Shown here piece after piece: positions 35,734-40,603 of a stretch of DNA of 46,158 nt. The notes beneath the pieces are model-generated. The model was not told the origin of the DNA, searched no databases, and saw only the letters and a program-made list of their open reading frames with translations. How positions within the stretch are numbered: the stretch's first letter is position 1; every line of letters begins with the position of its first letter. This stretch comes from a virus. Where the stretch lies: positions 1-46,158 of the IMG/VR virus record IMGVR_UViG_3300024239_000004. One strand, written 5' to 3'. Position numbers and translations under genes: made by a program.

Positions 35734-36312
35734 GTGTCTGAAATAAAGCTTACGCCGAAGCAAGAGGCTTTCTGCCTTGCTCTTGTGAAGTCTGAAACAG
35801 CTAGTCAGTCAGATGCGTACAGGCAGGCTTATAATGCGTCAAAAATGACTTCCAAGACCGTCAATGAAAGAGCAAGTGTTCTAATGGCTGACAGCAAGAT
35901 AACAGCAAGGGTGGCTGAATTAAGGGCTGCTGCTGCGAAAGGGGCTGTTATAGATGCGTCATACGTCCTTAAACGCCTTGTTGAGATAGATCAGATGGAC
36001 GTACTAGACATTCACAACGATGACGGCACAATAAAGCCTATAAAAGAATGGCCGAAGGTCTGGCGGCAGTTTTTATCCAGTGTCGAAGTGTCAGAGATAA
36101 TCACCAGCAAAGGCGACGACGAAAAAGTAACTGCAGTTCTGAAAAAAGTGAAGTGGCCTGACAAAGTGAAAAACCTTGAATTACTTGGTAAGCATTTATC
36201 TGTTGGCGCTTTTGTTGAAAGAGTGGATCACACAAGCTCTGACCGCAGCATGACACCCGCAAGCGTTAGCCCGGGCTTAGTCAGTTCACTGTTATCTAAA
36301 CTGGTGGATTAA
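35734..36312 (+). CDS. terS: Terminase small subunit
   Basis: The 192-residue protein begins with the typical LTPKQEAFCLALV, then SQSDAYRQAYNASKM and ASVLMADSKITARVAELR, the helix-turn-helix region of Terminase_2 small subunits. It recognises phage DNA and hands it to the large subunit. The second GTG (35734) is preferred to that at 35728 because of its spacing from GGAGAGG. It ends in an overlap with the large subunit gene. Confidence 0.9.
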   Translation: MSEIKLTPKQEAFCLALVKSETASQSDAYRQAYNASKMTSKTVNERASVLMADSKITARVAELRAAAAKGAVIDASYVLKRLVEIDQMDVLDIHNDDGTIKPIKEWPKVWRQFLSSVEVSEIITSKGDDEKVTAVLKKVKWPDKVKNLELLGKHLSVGAFVERVDHTSSDRSMTPASVSPGLVSSLLSKLVD

Positions 36313-37877
36313 TGGCTATCAAGCCGATTCAGTGGGATGAGCTATCTTACTCTGAACAGCTTGCTTTAGCCGCTGCCGGGGAGCAAAGCCCTTTAGCATT
36401 TACTGCCTTGTGGTTCAACATTACCCAAGGCGATTCGTTTAGAACAAACTGGCATCATCACTATTTCAACTGGGCTGCTGAAAAAGTCCTTTCTGGAGAA
36501 GTTAAAAACCTAATAGTAAATATCCCACCGGGCGGCACTAAAACAGAATTCTGGTCTGTGCATCTGCCTGTTTACTGCATGGTCAAATTCCCCCGGGTAA
36601 GAATACTCAACACCAGTTACTCAAAAGACCTCGTTAGCGAGAACAGCGAAAGATCCCGGGCGCTGGTAAAGTCATCTGAGTTTCAGCAGTTCTACAGCTT
36701 TGATATAGGTAAAGACAAAGTTGATGACTGGACTATAGAGAAAGACGGCAAGCGCATTCATCAGTTATTCAGCAGGCCATCAGGCGGTCAGATAACAGGT
36801 GTCCGGGGTGGTTATATGTCCGACAGCTTTAGCGGTTATATCAACGCTGATGACTGGGATAAAATAGACGACCTGTTCAGTGAGACAAAGCGCAAGAAGT
36901 CACACACCCGGATAGTAAACACCTTGCGAAGCCGTAAGGCTGATTTCAATACGCCTTTTATCTTTGTTCAGCAGCGCGGCCACGTAGATGACTCAACGGC
37001 TTATCTATTGTCCGGGAGCATGGGCCTTGAGATTGATTTGCACATCAAGATCCCGGCACTGATTGATCAAGATTATATTGATTCACTGCCCCCGGGCATA
37101 AAAGAGCGGTGCATCCAGGATGTTTGCAGCCATAAGCAACTAAACGGCAAGTGGTCATACTGGCCCGCAAAAGAATCTGTTGAAGATTTAACAGCCCTGA
37201 AAACTGCAAACCCGTACACATTCGCAAGCCAATACGACCAAGACCCGGAGAAGCTAGATGGCGGCATATTCTTTGAAAGCGACTTTGAATATTACGGTAG
37301 CGTGGAAGATGGCGCAGACATTCCACAGCCTGATAGCTGGGAATATCGGATTATCACTGTTGATACAGCGCAAAAGACTGGGGAGGCTAACGACTGGACT
37401 GTATACACTGAGTGGGGCGTTTATCAGGGCTGCATATACAGGCTCAGATCGTTCAGGAAGCGAGTAACAGCTAAAGAGTTAAGGCAGGCGTTTAAGTCAT
37501 TCGTACAAGCCTGCTGGGAAGATAACAGACCGAGCAATGGAAACCTGAGAGCGATACTTGTTGAAGATAAATCGTCAGGTACAGGTCTTATCCAGGAAAT
37601 GACTAATCAGTTACCACTAAGAATAACTCCGCTACCCAGGGCAAAAGATAAATTAACCCGGGCAATGGACTGTCAGCCCCACGTTGGATCAAAAAAGGTT
37701 AAGCTCAGATATGGCGATCCGACCAACTTAGATTTCGTCCCGGAGGTCTGCTCATTCAAAGAGGATGACTCGCACCCGTTCGATGACCAAACAGACACAA
37801 TGATGGATGCAGTTGATTATGTATGCATTCAGCCATTCACAACACCAAAAGCCTTTGTAATGAAACGCAGTCGATGA
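36312..37877 (+). CDS. terL: Terminase large subunit
   Basis: The 521-residue protein has the packaging ATPase and nuclease. The ATPase part shows a deviant Walker A, NIPPGGTKTE (about residues 72-81), as in this terminase family. The nuclease shows IITVDTAQKTGEANDWTV (metal-binding Asp), LVEDKSSGTGLIQEM and HPFDDQTDTMMDAVDY. It pumps DNA into the head and cuts it. It starts one base over the stop of the small subunit gene. Confidence 0.95.
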   Translation: MAIKPIQWDELSYSEQLALAAAGEQSPLAFTALWFNITQGDSFRTNWHHHYFNWAAEKVLSGEVKNLIVNIPPGGTKTEFWSVHLPVYCMVKFPRVRILNTSYSKDLVSENSERSRALVKSSEFQQFYSFDIGKDKVDDWTIEKDGKRIHQLFSRPSGGQITGVRGGYMSDSFSGYINADDWDKIDDLFSETKRKKSHTRIVNTLRSRKADFNTPFIFVQQRGHVDDSTAYLLSGSMGLEIDLHIKIPALIDQDYIDSLPPGIKERCIQDVCSHKQLNGKWSYWPAKESVEDLTALKTANPYTFASQYDQDPEKLDGGIFFESDFEYYGSVEDGADIPQPDSWEYRIITVDTAQKTGEANDWTVYTEWGVYQGCIYRLRSFRKRVTAKELRQAFKSFVQACWEDNRPSNGNLRAILVEDKSSGTGLIQEMTNQLPLRITPLPRAKDKLTRAMDCQPHVGSKKVKLRYGDPTNLDFVPEVCSFKEDDSHPFDDQTDTMMDAVDYVCIQPFTTPKAFVMKRSR

Positions 37878-38005
37878 AAGCCTATAAAGTCACGCTTAAA
37901 TCAGGGGGGGCGTTTAGCTATATTACGGATGAAAAGCCGGAGAACTTACCTGCTGCAATTTTCGAGAGATTTAGAGAATATCCAGAAAAGATAGAAAGTT
38001 TGTAA
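37874..38005 (+). CDS. 43-residue protein after terminase
   Basis: The ATG at 37874 overlaps the terL stop (ATGA). The product (MKAYKVTLKSGGAFSYITDE) looks like a small beta-hairpin plus helix. Small proteins of this kind often follow phage enzyme genes, with unknown function. The promoter of the RNA region begins eight bases after its stop. Confidence 0.62.
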   Translation: MKAYKVTLKSGGAFSYITDEKPENLPAAIFERFREYPEKIESL

Positions 38006-38012
38006 AAATAAT

Positions 38013-38041
38013 TTGCGCTTTTTGTATTCTTTGCGTATATT
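38013..38041 (+). promoter_or_regulatory. Promoter of the RNA/tRNA region
   Basis: TTGCGC, 17 bases, then TATATT: one of the best sigma-70-type promoters in the window. It has no ORF behind it for more than 500 bases, so it probably makes a noncoding transcript starting near 38048. Confidence 0.7.
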
Positions 38042-38047
38042 TAGCAT

Positions 38048-38430
38048 GTGTCGAGCAGGTAGCGCTGCTTAGGCAGGCAGAAGCCTCACCGGTAACACGG
38101 AAAAATAAATCGCGCTCTGTTAGTTTTGTGTTTCGCATCACTGATAATGGCACAAGAGCAAATTCGTTGATTAACGACGAAGCCCATCGTTAACGGGCAT
38201 TAGTTTATTGGTTAGGTGCCTTGAAAAGCATTAAATTGCTGGGCAATAAAACGGTTACTGGTATGCAGCCTACAAACCGAAGCGGCTAAAGCTAAACGCC
38301 CATAAGCTGCATCGAGACGCCTAAGCCAATGAGCTGAATGCGTGAAGCGCTTCCGGTGAGAGCGGTAGTATAAAGACATCACCCGCTTCAAAACGACAAG
38401 ATAAAGGCACTTGCCAGCTCATTACCAACA
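38048..38430 (+). ncRNA. Candidate large structured noncoding RNA
   Basis: About 380 nt carry no plausible ORF but many stems. Clear ones are: GTGT/ACAC (38048-38051 with 38095-38098) enclosing two hairpins; GCTC/GAGC with TTGTG/CACAA (38114-38159); TTAACGA/TCGTTAA (38171-38193), which competes with TCGTT/AACGA; ATTGC/GCAAT (38235-38247); ATGCAGC/GCTGCAT (38263-38312), crossing CGGTT/AACCG (38252-38279) as a possible pseudoknot; and AATGAGCTG/CAGCTCATT (38328-38423) enclosing GAAGCG/CGCTTC plus GGTGA/TCACC (38344-38389). A strong promoter precedes it and a tRNA follows. GOLLD and ROOL RNAs occur beside phage tRNAs, but I cannot confirm membership. Confidence 0.6.
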
Positions 38431-38432
38431 AC

Positions 38433-38506
38433 GCATCATTAATTTAATGGCAAAATCTCTGCCTTCCAAGCAGGTGACAACGGTTCGATTCCGTTATGAT
38501 GCTCCA
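38433..38506 (+). tRNA. tRNA-Gly, anticodon UCC
   Basis: A full cloverleaf is visible. The acceptor is GCATCAT/ATGATGC and the D stem ATTT/AAAT has GG in its loop. The anticodon stem TCTGC/GCAGG has loop CTTCCAA (anticodon TCC), and the T stem AACGG/CCGTT has loop TTCGATT. The 3' CCA is encoded. It reads GGA glycine codons. It follows the structured RNA by two bases and so is probably processed from the same transcript. Confidence 0.93.
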
Positions 38507-38573
38507 TTTACCGCAGCACCTTAACTCCAATAGTGGCTTGCCGTAGAGATGCGGCTTTAATTTTGGGCCAGTC
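38507..38573 (+). other. Leader between tRNA and HNH gene, with hairpin
   Basis: No gene is present. CCGCA (38511-38515) can pair with TGCGG (38550-38554), followed by CTTTAATTTT, a poor terminator or processing hairpin. TTACCG (38508-38513) could instead pair with CGGTAA (38090-38095) in the upstream RNA, which would bracket the tRNA. Confidence 0.4.
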
Positions 38574-39083
38574 ATGAAAAAATTAACAAAACAACAAAAG
38601 CAAGAGGCAAAGCAAGCGAAGCTAAAGCGCAGGGCTGATGATATTCAGAAAGCAAAAACAGAGGTTATGCAGTGGCTAGGTATTGGCGGTATTTATTCCA
38701 CTCTTGAAATAGTCTGCTGTGCTGCTGCCAAGCTTAATATGGTTTTGCGTGGTGATATTCACGAAAACCAGCAAATAAAATTTATCGCTGAGCGCATAAG
38801 GCGGATCGAGCGCCCTATAAAAACCAAAAGGCGATCAGATGATAATTTCTATTCATCTAGGCTTTGGAAAATAATCCGCTACCAAGCATTGGAGCTTCAT
38901 GGCAATAAATGCGTTTGCTGTGGTGCATCGCCTTCTGATGGAGTATCAATTCACGTTGACCATATAAAACCAAGATCAACACATCCAGAATTGGAGCTTG
39001 ATATAAACAACCTGCAGCCTCTTTGTGAGGATTGCAACGTGGGAAAAATAAACCAGTGGGACACAAGTTGGATTGGCTCATAG
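38574..39083 (+). CDS. HNH endonuclease
   Basis: The 169-residue protein has a basic N-terminus (KKLTKQQKQEAKQAKLKRRA) and a C-terminal HNH domain with CVCCGASP, HVDHIKPRSTHPELELDIN, NLQPLCEDCN and GK. The His, Asn and His residues and both CxxC zinc pairs are present. HNH enzymes next to terminase genes often help cut cos-type ends. Here it lies between terminase and portal, next to the RNA region, so a mobile (homing-type) origin is an alternative. Confidence 0.88.
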   Translation: MKKLTKQQKQEAKQAKLKRRADDIQKAKTEVMQWLGIGGIYSTLEIVCCAAAKLNMVLRGDIHENQQIKFIAERIRRIERPIKTKRRSDDNFYSSRLWKIIRYQALELHGNKCVCCGASPSDGVSIHVDHIKPRSTHPELELDINNLQPLCEDCNVGKINQWDTSWIGS

Positions 39084-39132
39084 CATCCATGACATACGGT
39101 CTTGTTGATACTATTGCTTAAAAACAGACTCA

Positions 39133-39161
39133 TTTAATAATTTTGGTCTAAGTGCTAATAT
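39133..39161 (+). promoter_or_regulatory. Candidate promoter of the portal operon
   Basis: TTTAAT, 17 bases, then TAATAT lies 27 bases before the portal ATG. The GTGCTAATAT segment is identical to that before the small terminase gene, which suggests common late control. The minus-strand TTGCGTTTT element at 39165-39173 overlaps the region. Confidence 0.45.
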
Positions 39162-39187
39162 GTCTAAAACGCAACCGGATTTAAGAC

Positions 39188-40588
39188 ATGCAAATAACAG
39201 TCAATCAATTAGCGCATCTAATCGCCAACAGCGCACCGCAGAGCTTGAGACAAAGCTGGGCCAATGCCTCACTGAAAGGCAACACTAAGCAGCAACAGGC
39301 TTGGTTTGATTTCGGCTGGCCGGAACAGCTTAGCTTTGACATGCTTTACAATATGTTCAAGCGCTCTGGTATAGCAAAATGCGTTGTGACTACTCCGCCG
39401 GATATTTGCTGGAAAACCCATCCGATTATCTGGGAAGGCAAGTCAGCAGAAGAAGCTCAGAAGCGAAAAACAAGAACAGCCTTCGAAAATGCAGCCGATG
39501 AATTAGCTGACAGATTATCCATTTACCAACTGATGAAGCAGGCAGACGTTAAAGGTCGCATTGGCTATTACTCTGCATTCATCATTCAGATAGCCGGGCA
39601 AGGCGAAGAAATAGAATGGATAAAGCCGCTAGGCAGAATTCGACCCGATCAAGTTGTCAAAGTTATTCCGGTTTACAGCGAACAATTGCGCCAATCAACA
39701 TGGGACGAAGATAGAACTAGCATTCGTTACGGCCAACCTTTGACGTACAACTACCAAGAAGCTGCAGTTGGTAGCACTGATGACTCAATTAAACGCAGCG
39801 AGACGATCCACCACAGTAGGGTAATTGTATTCACAGAAAACCCTGAATCGGATTCAATTCGCGGCATACCAGAGCTTGAAGCGTCATTTAATGACCTGCT
39901 AATGATCGAGCTTATTTGTGGCGCAGGTGGTCAGGGGTTTTGGAAGAATGCAGCAAACAAACTGCACTTCAATATTACTGACCCGCAAGCTGCACCTGTT
40001 CAAGCACAAGAAAAAGCAGACATGGAGCAATCCCTAGAGGATTTCACCACTGAGCTTGATAAATTCCTGCTGACCTCTGGCATTGACGTAAACAAGCTAG
40101 AAGCCGCTTTAGCTGACCCTGAGCCGTTTTATCAGATGTACCTGTCTAACATAGCCGCATCATCGCGCATACCGAAAAACCGCTTATCAGGCAGTCAGAC
40201 AGGCGTTTTAGCCGGAGACAAAGACGAAGCTGCTTTCCTATCTGAAATGATGAGCCGCCGTCAGAACTGGTGCGCTCAGATGGTCAATCAGTGGATCGAC
40301 TGGTGTATAGCTCATGGCGTTCTGCCTAAAGTCCGGTACGTGGTCGAATTTGACGATCTGCTTTCTGCTTCTGATGAGCAGCGTTTAACTTTGGTTGATA
40401 AGATGACTCAGGCAAACGACAAGCATATCACAGCACAAGTGAAAATCGGTGCAACTGAAATCAGCCCGTTATTCAGCGATGAAGAAATGCGCCTTGTTGC
40501 TGGTTATAAAGGCCCGGTAAGACAGGTTGTCGAGCAAGTGGAGGATGAAATAGTTGAGCCTGAAGCAGAAATAGTTGACAATCAATAA
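39188..40588 (+). CDS. Portal protein (DUF1073 family)
   Basis: The 466-residue protein matches DUF1073-type portals: FDMLYNMFKRSGIAKCVVTT with PPDICWK near the start, HHSRVIVFTENPESDSIRGI, and AASSRIPKNRLSGSQTGVLA near residue 325-350. Twelve copies form the ring through which DNA enters and leaves the head. The acidic C-terminal tail (VEDEIVEPEAEIVD) is typical of linkers to other head proteins. Confidence 0.9.
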   Translation: MQITVNQLAHLIANSAPQSLRQSWANASLKGNTKQQQAWFDFGWPEQLSFDMLYNMFKRSGIAKCVVTTPPDICWKTHPIIWEGKSAEEAQKRKTRTAFENAADELADRLSIYQLMKQADVKGRIGYYSAFIIQIAGQGEEIEWIKPLGRIRPDQVVKVIPVYSEQLRQSTWDEDRTSIRYGQPLTYNYQEAAVGSTDDSIKRSETIHHSRVIVFTENPESDSIRGIPELEASFNDLLMIELICGAGGQGFWKNAANKLHFNITDPQAAPVQAQEKADMEQSLEDFTTELDKFLLTSGIDVNKLEAALADPEPFYQMYLSNIAASSRIPKNRLSGSQTGVLAGDKDEAAFLSEMMSRRQNWCAQMVNQWIDWCIAHGVLPKVRYVVEFDDLLSASDEQRLTLVDKMTQANDKHITAQVKIGATEISPLFSDEEMRLVAGYKGPVRQVVEQVEDEIVEPEAEIVDNQ

Positions 40589-40603
40589 CGGATAGAATAC
40601 ATT
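40575..40603 (+). promoter_or_regulatory. Promoter of the accessory gene at 40641
   Basis: TTGACA, 17 bases, then TACATT: the -35 box is perfect. It begins inside the end of the portal gene. Confidence 0.68.

Follow-up and report, generated by a model that had tools for sequence, protein, structure and literature searches.

A 46,158-base virus record, hereafter the window, which carries tail, replication and packaging genes, contains a candidate plus-strand RNA of about 390 nt (38042-38432) that runs into an intact tRNA-Gly and stands ahead of an HNH endonuclease gene, between the genes for the large terminase subunit (terL) and the portal protein. We tentatively favour the reading that this RNA is the 5' part of a mobile RNA-tRNA(Gly)-HNH cassette and that it limits or times the production of the HNH enzyme. 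The observations behind this reading are the layout of the cassette, the intact tRNA, an excess of folding that is specific to one strand, relatives in which the insertion is absent from the junction, and other structured RNAs that often lie upstream of related HNH genes. We infer the function of the window RNA, its expression included.

In such a cassette, the RNA would be transcribed together with the tRNA, either from the weak promoter-like site or through transcription that continues out of terL, and host RNase P would cleave the transcript at 38432/38433. The tRNA would thereby free the RNA that precedes it, giving this a defined 3' end and parting it from the HNH message, and the folded RNA could serve the cassette, most likely by controlling the amount of HNH enzyme as a structured leader or a stable decoy, while the HNH gene would drive the spread of the whole. 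Several findings weaken the cassette reading: the window RNA resembles no HNH-associated RNA and has no U-run signature, the loci of the two closest HNH proteins have no long RNA, the comparable RNA of Vibrio phages is not specific to HNH genes, the sequence is an orphan, and its supported domain was delimited post hoc.

Gene content of the terL-portal junction

The genes and signals of the junction are collected in Table 1. Read from left to right, terL is followed by a 43-aa ORF, about 430 non-coding bases, the tRNA-Gly, 67 non-coding bases, the HNH gene and the portal gene. The initial annotation, made from the sequence, had described a gene-free interval between terminase and portal with an intact tRNA-Gly at its end, and all of this was borne out: reading frames listed stop to stop yield no credible gene in 38006-38573, from the end of the 43-aa ORF (38005) to the HNH start (38574), which rules out a hidden protein gene, and matches to PHROG families identify both flanking genes. 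Relatives of the 43-aa ORF were looked for, and none were found. The HNH gene directly after the tRNA had been passed over by that annotation and is the most informative neighbour of the interval.

Table 1. Features of the terL-portal junction, in coordinates of the window
Feature	Position	Strand	Basis
terL, large terminase subunit gene, left neighbour	36312-37877	+	PHROG 38, E 2.4e-84
Small ORF, 43 aa; start overlaps terL stop (ATGA)	37874-38005	+	
Weak promoter-like site, TTGCGC-17-TATATT, 8/12 matches	38013-38041	+	Expected by chance
Candidate structured RNA, reaching the tRNA 5' end	38042-38432	+	ORF-free, MFE z, no Rfam match, no homologue
Possible small pseudoknot, TTAACGA/TCGTTAA (38171-38177 with 38187-38193), crossing GCCC/GGGC	38171-38198	+	Helix list
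Central domain; three hairpins at a junction closed by a long, interrupted outer stem	38187-38350	+	Shuffles
3' hairpin, TGAAGCG/CGCTTCA (38343-38349 with 38384-38390), inner GGTGA/TCACC	38343-38390	+	Helix list, sequence
tRNA-Gly, anticodon TCC, intact	38433-38506	+	ARAGORN; Rfam RF00005, 63.7 bits
Weak terminator-like hairpin, GCCGTAGAGATGCGGC then TTTAATTTT	38540-38564	+	One present, 1.7 expected from shuffles
HNH endonuclease gene, 169 aa	38574-39083	+	Pfam PF01844, E 2.6e-10
Portal protein gene, right neighbour	39188-40588	+	PHROG 146, E 3.6e-66

Comparison with relatives suggests that the block is an addition to this junction. The window RNA is absent from 35 loci around terL relatives, nearly all of which have 65-73% protein identity, and a portal-based search found no copy of it. 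The gap between terL and portal is about 15-17 nt in three of the relatives (L020, L032, L033), and in two loci with portals related to that of the window (L004, L029) the portal follows terL directly, with no insertion; a conserved insertion of the terL group was accordingly rejected. Because terL and portal are adjacent in relatives, the RNA-tRNA-HNH block was either gained in the lineage of the window or lost elsewhere, and gain is the simpler of the two.

Folding and signals of the interval

Statistical support for structure is concentrated in the centre of the interval. The stretch 38040-38432 has an MFE z of -2.95, none of 100 shuffles folding as well, and among 200-base tiles laid over 36000-40600 the lowest z, -3.54, falls on the plus strand of 38200-38399, for which the minus strand gives -1.12. 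The central domain reaches z -3.81 on the plus strand (0 of 200 shuffles) and -1.56 on the minus strand, the p-value being somewhat optimistic since the domain was picked after inspection of the fold. Its outer stem (38188-38349) scores 46.0, as compared with 30.3 +/- 4.3 in shuffles, of which 3 of 400 reach 46.0. The fold excess of 38040-38432 is owed almost wholly to this domain, and the 5' part (38042-38186) gives a non-significant z of -1.06. Of the large structured RNA joined to a tRNA that had been claimed, there stands a plausible plus-strand RNA with statistical and strand-specific support for its central domain; the 5' third does not share in it, and the supported structure is one domain, not the whole ornate picture.

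Single stems provide no evidence for a structured RNA, because the counts of perfect helices in 38040-38432 lie near those of shuffles: at scores of at least 13, 15, 17 and 19 there are 64, 21, 11 and 6 helices, against 52.6, 19.7, 8.2 and 3.0. The helices named in the initial annotation do exist, most of them being no more than chance would give. Its 7-bp stem with a loop side crossing another stem can also be traced, as the TTAACGA/TCGTTAA helix and the possible GCCC/GGGC pairing; taken alone, this small pseudoknot is not above chance, and it competes with the base of the central domain, with which the 3' hairpin has bases 38343-38349 in common. The central stem can moreover pair through its 3' strand (38319-38337) with 38067-38074 (8 bp) or with 38415-38423 (9 bp), the latter sitting just before the tRNA, which suggests possible alternative folds.

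The signals around the RNA are weak. A promoter with TTGCGC and TATATT spaced by 17 had been claimed, and such a site is present; it has 3/6 and 5/6 matches, when a 120-nt stretch is shuffled at constant composition, 38% of the shuffles contain an equally good site, and a standard scan does not have it among its listed sites, so that what stands is a weak, chance-level site. The terminator-like hairpin is likewise at chance level.

No homologue of the RNA came to light. A blastn search of the interval against 50,697 phage records returned matches to the tRNA part or by chance, and exact-word scans (three of IMG/VR and one of GTDB genome contigs) gave chance matches only, the best-looking of which (24 nt, L199/L212) was rejected as it lies inside an 835-aa ORF. 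No homologue appeared near relatives of the HNH gene either, and a search of genome contigs found no relative of that gene. The initial annotation had counted a lack of conserved homologues with covarying stems against a structured RNA; that is what the searches have so far returned, through absence of data and not through contradiction. As far as the searched sets reach, conservation of the window RNA is not detectable, and the absence of homologues is not proof.

The main rival to the cassette reading is that the interval is a non-functional or weakly constrained spacer which came with the tRNA and the HNH gene, its fold being a chance excess picked by inspection. We consider this unlikely, though it deserves to be taken seriously. 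A sequence with no homologue in any searched set, a promoter and most stems no better than chance and an unstructured 5' third is what a spacer would look like, whereas a strand-specific central domain that 0 of 200 shuffles equal, and the retention of about 390 non-coding bases in a compact phage genome, are harder to reconcile with it.

RNA elements upstream of related HNH genes

The HNH protein shares 48-57% identity with nine full-length relatives, and its N-terminal domain is common to Vibrio phage 2.095.A and the IMG/VR relatives. Full-length and more distant relatives together make up a set of 141 distinct loci. Several of these have 400-900 bases with no plus-strand gene ahead of the HNH start, and in a few a minus-strand gene occupies this space. 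The loci of the closest proteins (L120 and L121, 57%) have no long RNA upstream and a minus-strand gene instead.

A recurrent element stands upstream of many of these genes. It consists of a long hairpin, helix 2, usually of 20-27 positions, with a U-run immediately after it; the loop of helix 2 pairs with a strand lying ahead of the hairpin (helix 1), which makes a pseudoknot over a terminator. A detector, designed after examples had been seen and with its controls scored by the identical rule, matches 42 of 133 distinct HNH loci within 900 nt upstream. Elsewhere in these loci it matches 3 of 462 windows of 900 bases, and shuffling the upstream regions leaves 0.5 matches in 133. Examples are L119:2213-2410, L117:3466-3660, L122, L125, L130, L190, L184, L230 and L285, among others. 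Among the 43 detector matches there are 36 distinct sequences of helix 1 and 31 of helix 2. Six loci form a cluster (A5: L273, L275, L280, L285, L287, L290) whose downstream sequence is nearly identical, while compensated variation is seen in helix 1 and the inner hairpin: 95.6% of cells are paired, all slid registers give lower values, and the covariation score of the crossing helix is 0.264 as compared with 0.130 +/- 0.026 when shuffled (0 of 500). In this cluster both the crossing helix and the inner hairpin change rapidly, as if under diversifying selection.

Between the terminator and the HNH start lies a second RNA domain, which is conserved across several loci and has compensatory pairs. 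Its core reads ..CACCG..TAAAGCSCYATGAAG..CAGGSGCAAG.., with a compensated hairpin (alignment A1: L041, L046, L071, L072, L098, L058). tRNAs recur in these loci: a tRNA-Gln between the two RNA domains, and thus between the first RNA and the HNH gene (L095); a tRNA-Arg and a tRNA-Met after the terminator, again between the first RNA and the HNH gene (L184); and a tRNA array just upstream of the RNA-HNH locus (L267). A T-arm-like motif is seen in the second RNA domain of L246. In the HNH loci scanned, Rfam gave nothing above thresholds except tRNAs, and a search of open-access full texts found no paper on structured RNAs ahead of HNH genes in phages; the pseudoknot-terminator RNA is apparently undescribed, and neither it nor the second domain is in Rfam.

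The element is also present in cultured phages. Vibrio phages 1.276.O and 2.095.A have it ahead of their HNH genes, and their relatives have it ahead of a DNA methylase gene in jenny 12G5 (with a homologous region in 1.135.O and vB_VnaS-L3), ahead of a phosphoesterase gene in 1.054.O and ahead of small ORFs in 242E40-1 and 1.038.O. The idea that the RNA is specific to HNH genes was rejected on these grounds. The Vibrio phage copies often lie near portal or capsid genes; in IMG/VR, the form with an HNH gene is also found beside terminase, helicase or replication genes. Matches were found to 317 records; most of them extend over no more than the first 30-50 nt, which form a promoter element CCCACTTTGCATTTGTGTGGAGTGGGTGTATAAT, and the notion of the complete RNA in about 300 Vibrio phages was therefore dropped. 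The promoter element (e.g. L119:2219-2255) is highly conserved, with an internal inverted repeat CCCACT...AGTGGG and a TATAAT; it has matches in about 300 Vibrio phage records, and is followed by the pseudoknot RNA in several records and by other sequence in others. A 'tRNA-Und' is annotated in the RNA locus of 242E40-1 (L334:2667-2769).

The window RNA resembles the pseudoknot-terminator RNA (2.095.A, 1.276.O, L122, L125, L184, L190, L285) in three respects: it is a structured, non-coding RNA, it precedes an HNH gene from the same family, and its locus contains a tRNA (tRNA-Gly in the window; compare L095, L184 and L267). It differs in that it has no sequence similarity, no long U-run terminator hairpin and no crossing helix, and its promoter is weak. 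An nhmmer comparison of the window RNA with 136 HNH upstream regions gave no match, the covariance model of the second RNA domain (R1) reached a best E of 2.2 on the window, and the pseudoknot-terminator detector, in a run that included the window, did not report it. Although the window RNA does lie upstream of a same-family HNH gene, it was not filed as a member of this class, because it has no likeness in sequence, model or terminator and L120 and L121 have no such RNA. What the window and the HNH-linked loci have in common is the layout alone, structured RNA-tRNA-HNH.

It is rather unlikely that the window RNA belongs with the HNH-linked pseudoknot RNAs to a single fast-diverging group of phage selfish or accessory cassettes, often with tRNAs, in which the RNA would be the partner or controller of a small nuclease, its fold kept and its sequence rewritten. 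Pursuit of the window candidate brought out a recurrent RNA element, supported by covariation, ahead of phage HNH genes, and the presence of this element in cultured Vibrio phages makes the role of such RNAs testable in the laboratory, with the window RNA still an orphan.

Comparison with known RNA classes

The initial annotation had proposed that the RNA is a member of a class such as GOLLD or ROOL, a diverged relative, or an undescribed class. A permissive Rfam cmscan of 37500-39000 (1.5 kb, E up to 10) returned only the tRNA and unrelated sub-threshold matches, and a second scan of the whole window matched the tRNA alone. As far as Rfam models tell, membership is rejected: the GOLLD covariance model, which represents the conserved 3' region, has no match at E up to 10, and the ROOL model has none in either scan. 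The other candidates fared no better, ARAGORN giving a plain tRNA-Gly and no tmRNA (nor does Rfam), and group I and group II introns having no model match at a site where the tRNA and the flanking genes are intact.

We know of no function for GOLLD or ROOL, both large structured phage RNAs found near tRNAs. Working as they do would be a matter separate from membership. We regard it as distinctly unlikely that the window RNA is an independent large ornate RNA of this kind, self-assembling and abundant late in infection, for which the nearby tRNA would be typical and the HNH gene incidental. Its size, phage origin and adjoining tRNA fit such an RNA, GOLLD and ROOL being phage RNAs often near tRNA islands (PMC12286853), but there is no Rfam match even at E 10, a single domain is clearly structured, and the RNA is shorter than GOLLD, many of which exceed 800 nt, and than ROOL env-120 at 659 nt (PMC12286853). 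GOLLD is a phage-borne large RNA with tRNAs nearby or in its linker (PMC12286853), and the adjacent tRNA-Gly of the window agrees with this, which is not a sufficient feature for assignment.

It is possible but unsupported, and very unlikely, that the RNA acts in DNA cutting as a bound partner of the HNH protein. The model for such a partnership would be the omega-RNA of IscB/IsrB (HEARO) systems, which takes part in DNA cutting and is encoded directly upstream of the nuclease-family gene; IscB has an HNH domain. The window RNA does lie directly upstream of a small HNH gene, a pairing that recurs in other phages, and 38287-38301, in a loop of the candidate RNA, has a 15-nt inverted complementarity (14/15) to DNA 37908-37922 in the 43-aa ORF, for which the chance expectation is about 5% by a rough estimate. 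Against this, HEARO has no match, Pfam finds HNH-type domains only and no RuvC or IscB domain, the RNAs are wholly different from locus to locus, and genes other than HNH are also found with the same RNA.

More improbable still is the packaging or late-regulation role that had been suggested from the position between terL and portal: terminase relatives have no insertion at this junction, which rules out a conserved packaging element of the phage group, and related RNA-HNH loci also lie beside helicase or replication genes. As improbable is a leader that acts purely in cis, on maturation of the tRNA or on translation of HNH, and has no RNA function of its own. The direct junction with the tRNA and the HNH start 67 nt past it speak for such a leader; against it, the RNA is far larger than needed and has its structured domain 80 nt from the tRNA.

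Like GOLLD, the window RNA is phage-borne with a tRNA close by; unlike GOLLD, it has no model match, is shorter and has only one significantly structured domain. ROOL RNAs are phage-borne, lie near tRNAs, run to several hundred nucleotides and have proposed pseudoknots, in all of which the window RNA is like them, and it differs from them in the missing model match and in having one significant domain only. From HEARO and its omega-RNA it is set apart by the lack of a model match, by a 169-aa HNH protein with no RuvC or IscB domain and by the tRNA that intervenes in the window; common to both is a structured RNA upstream of an HNH-domain nuclease-family gene.
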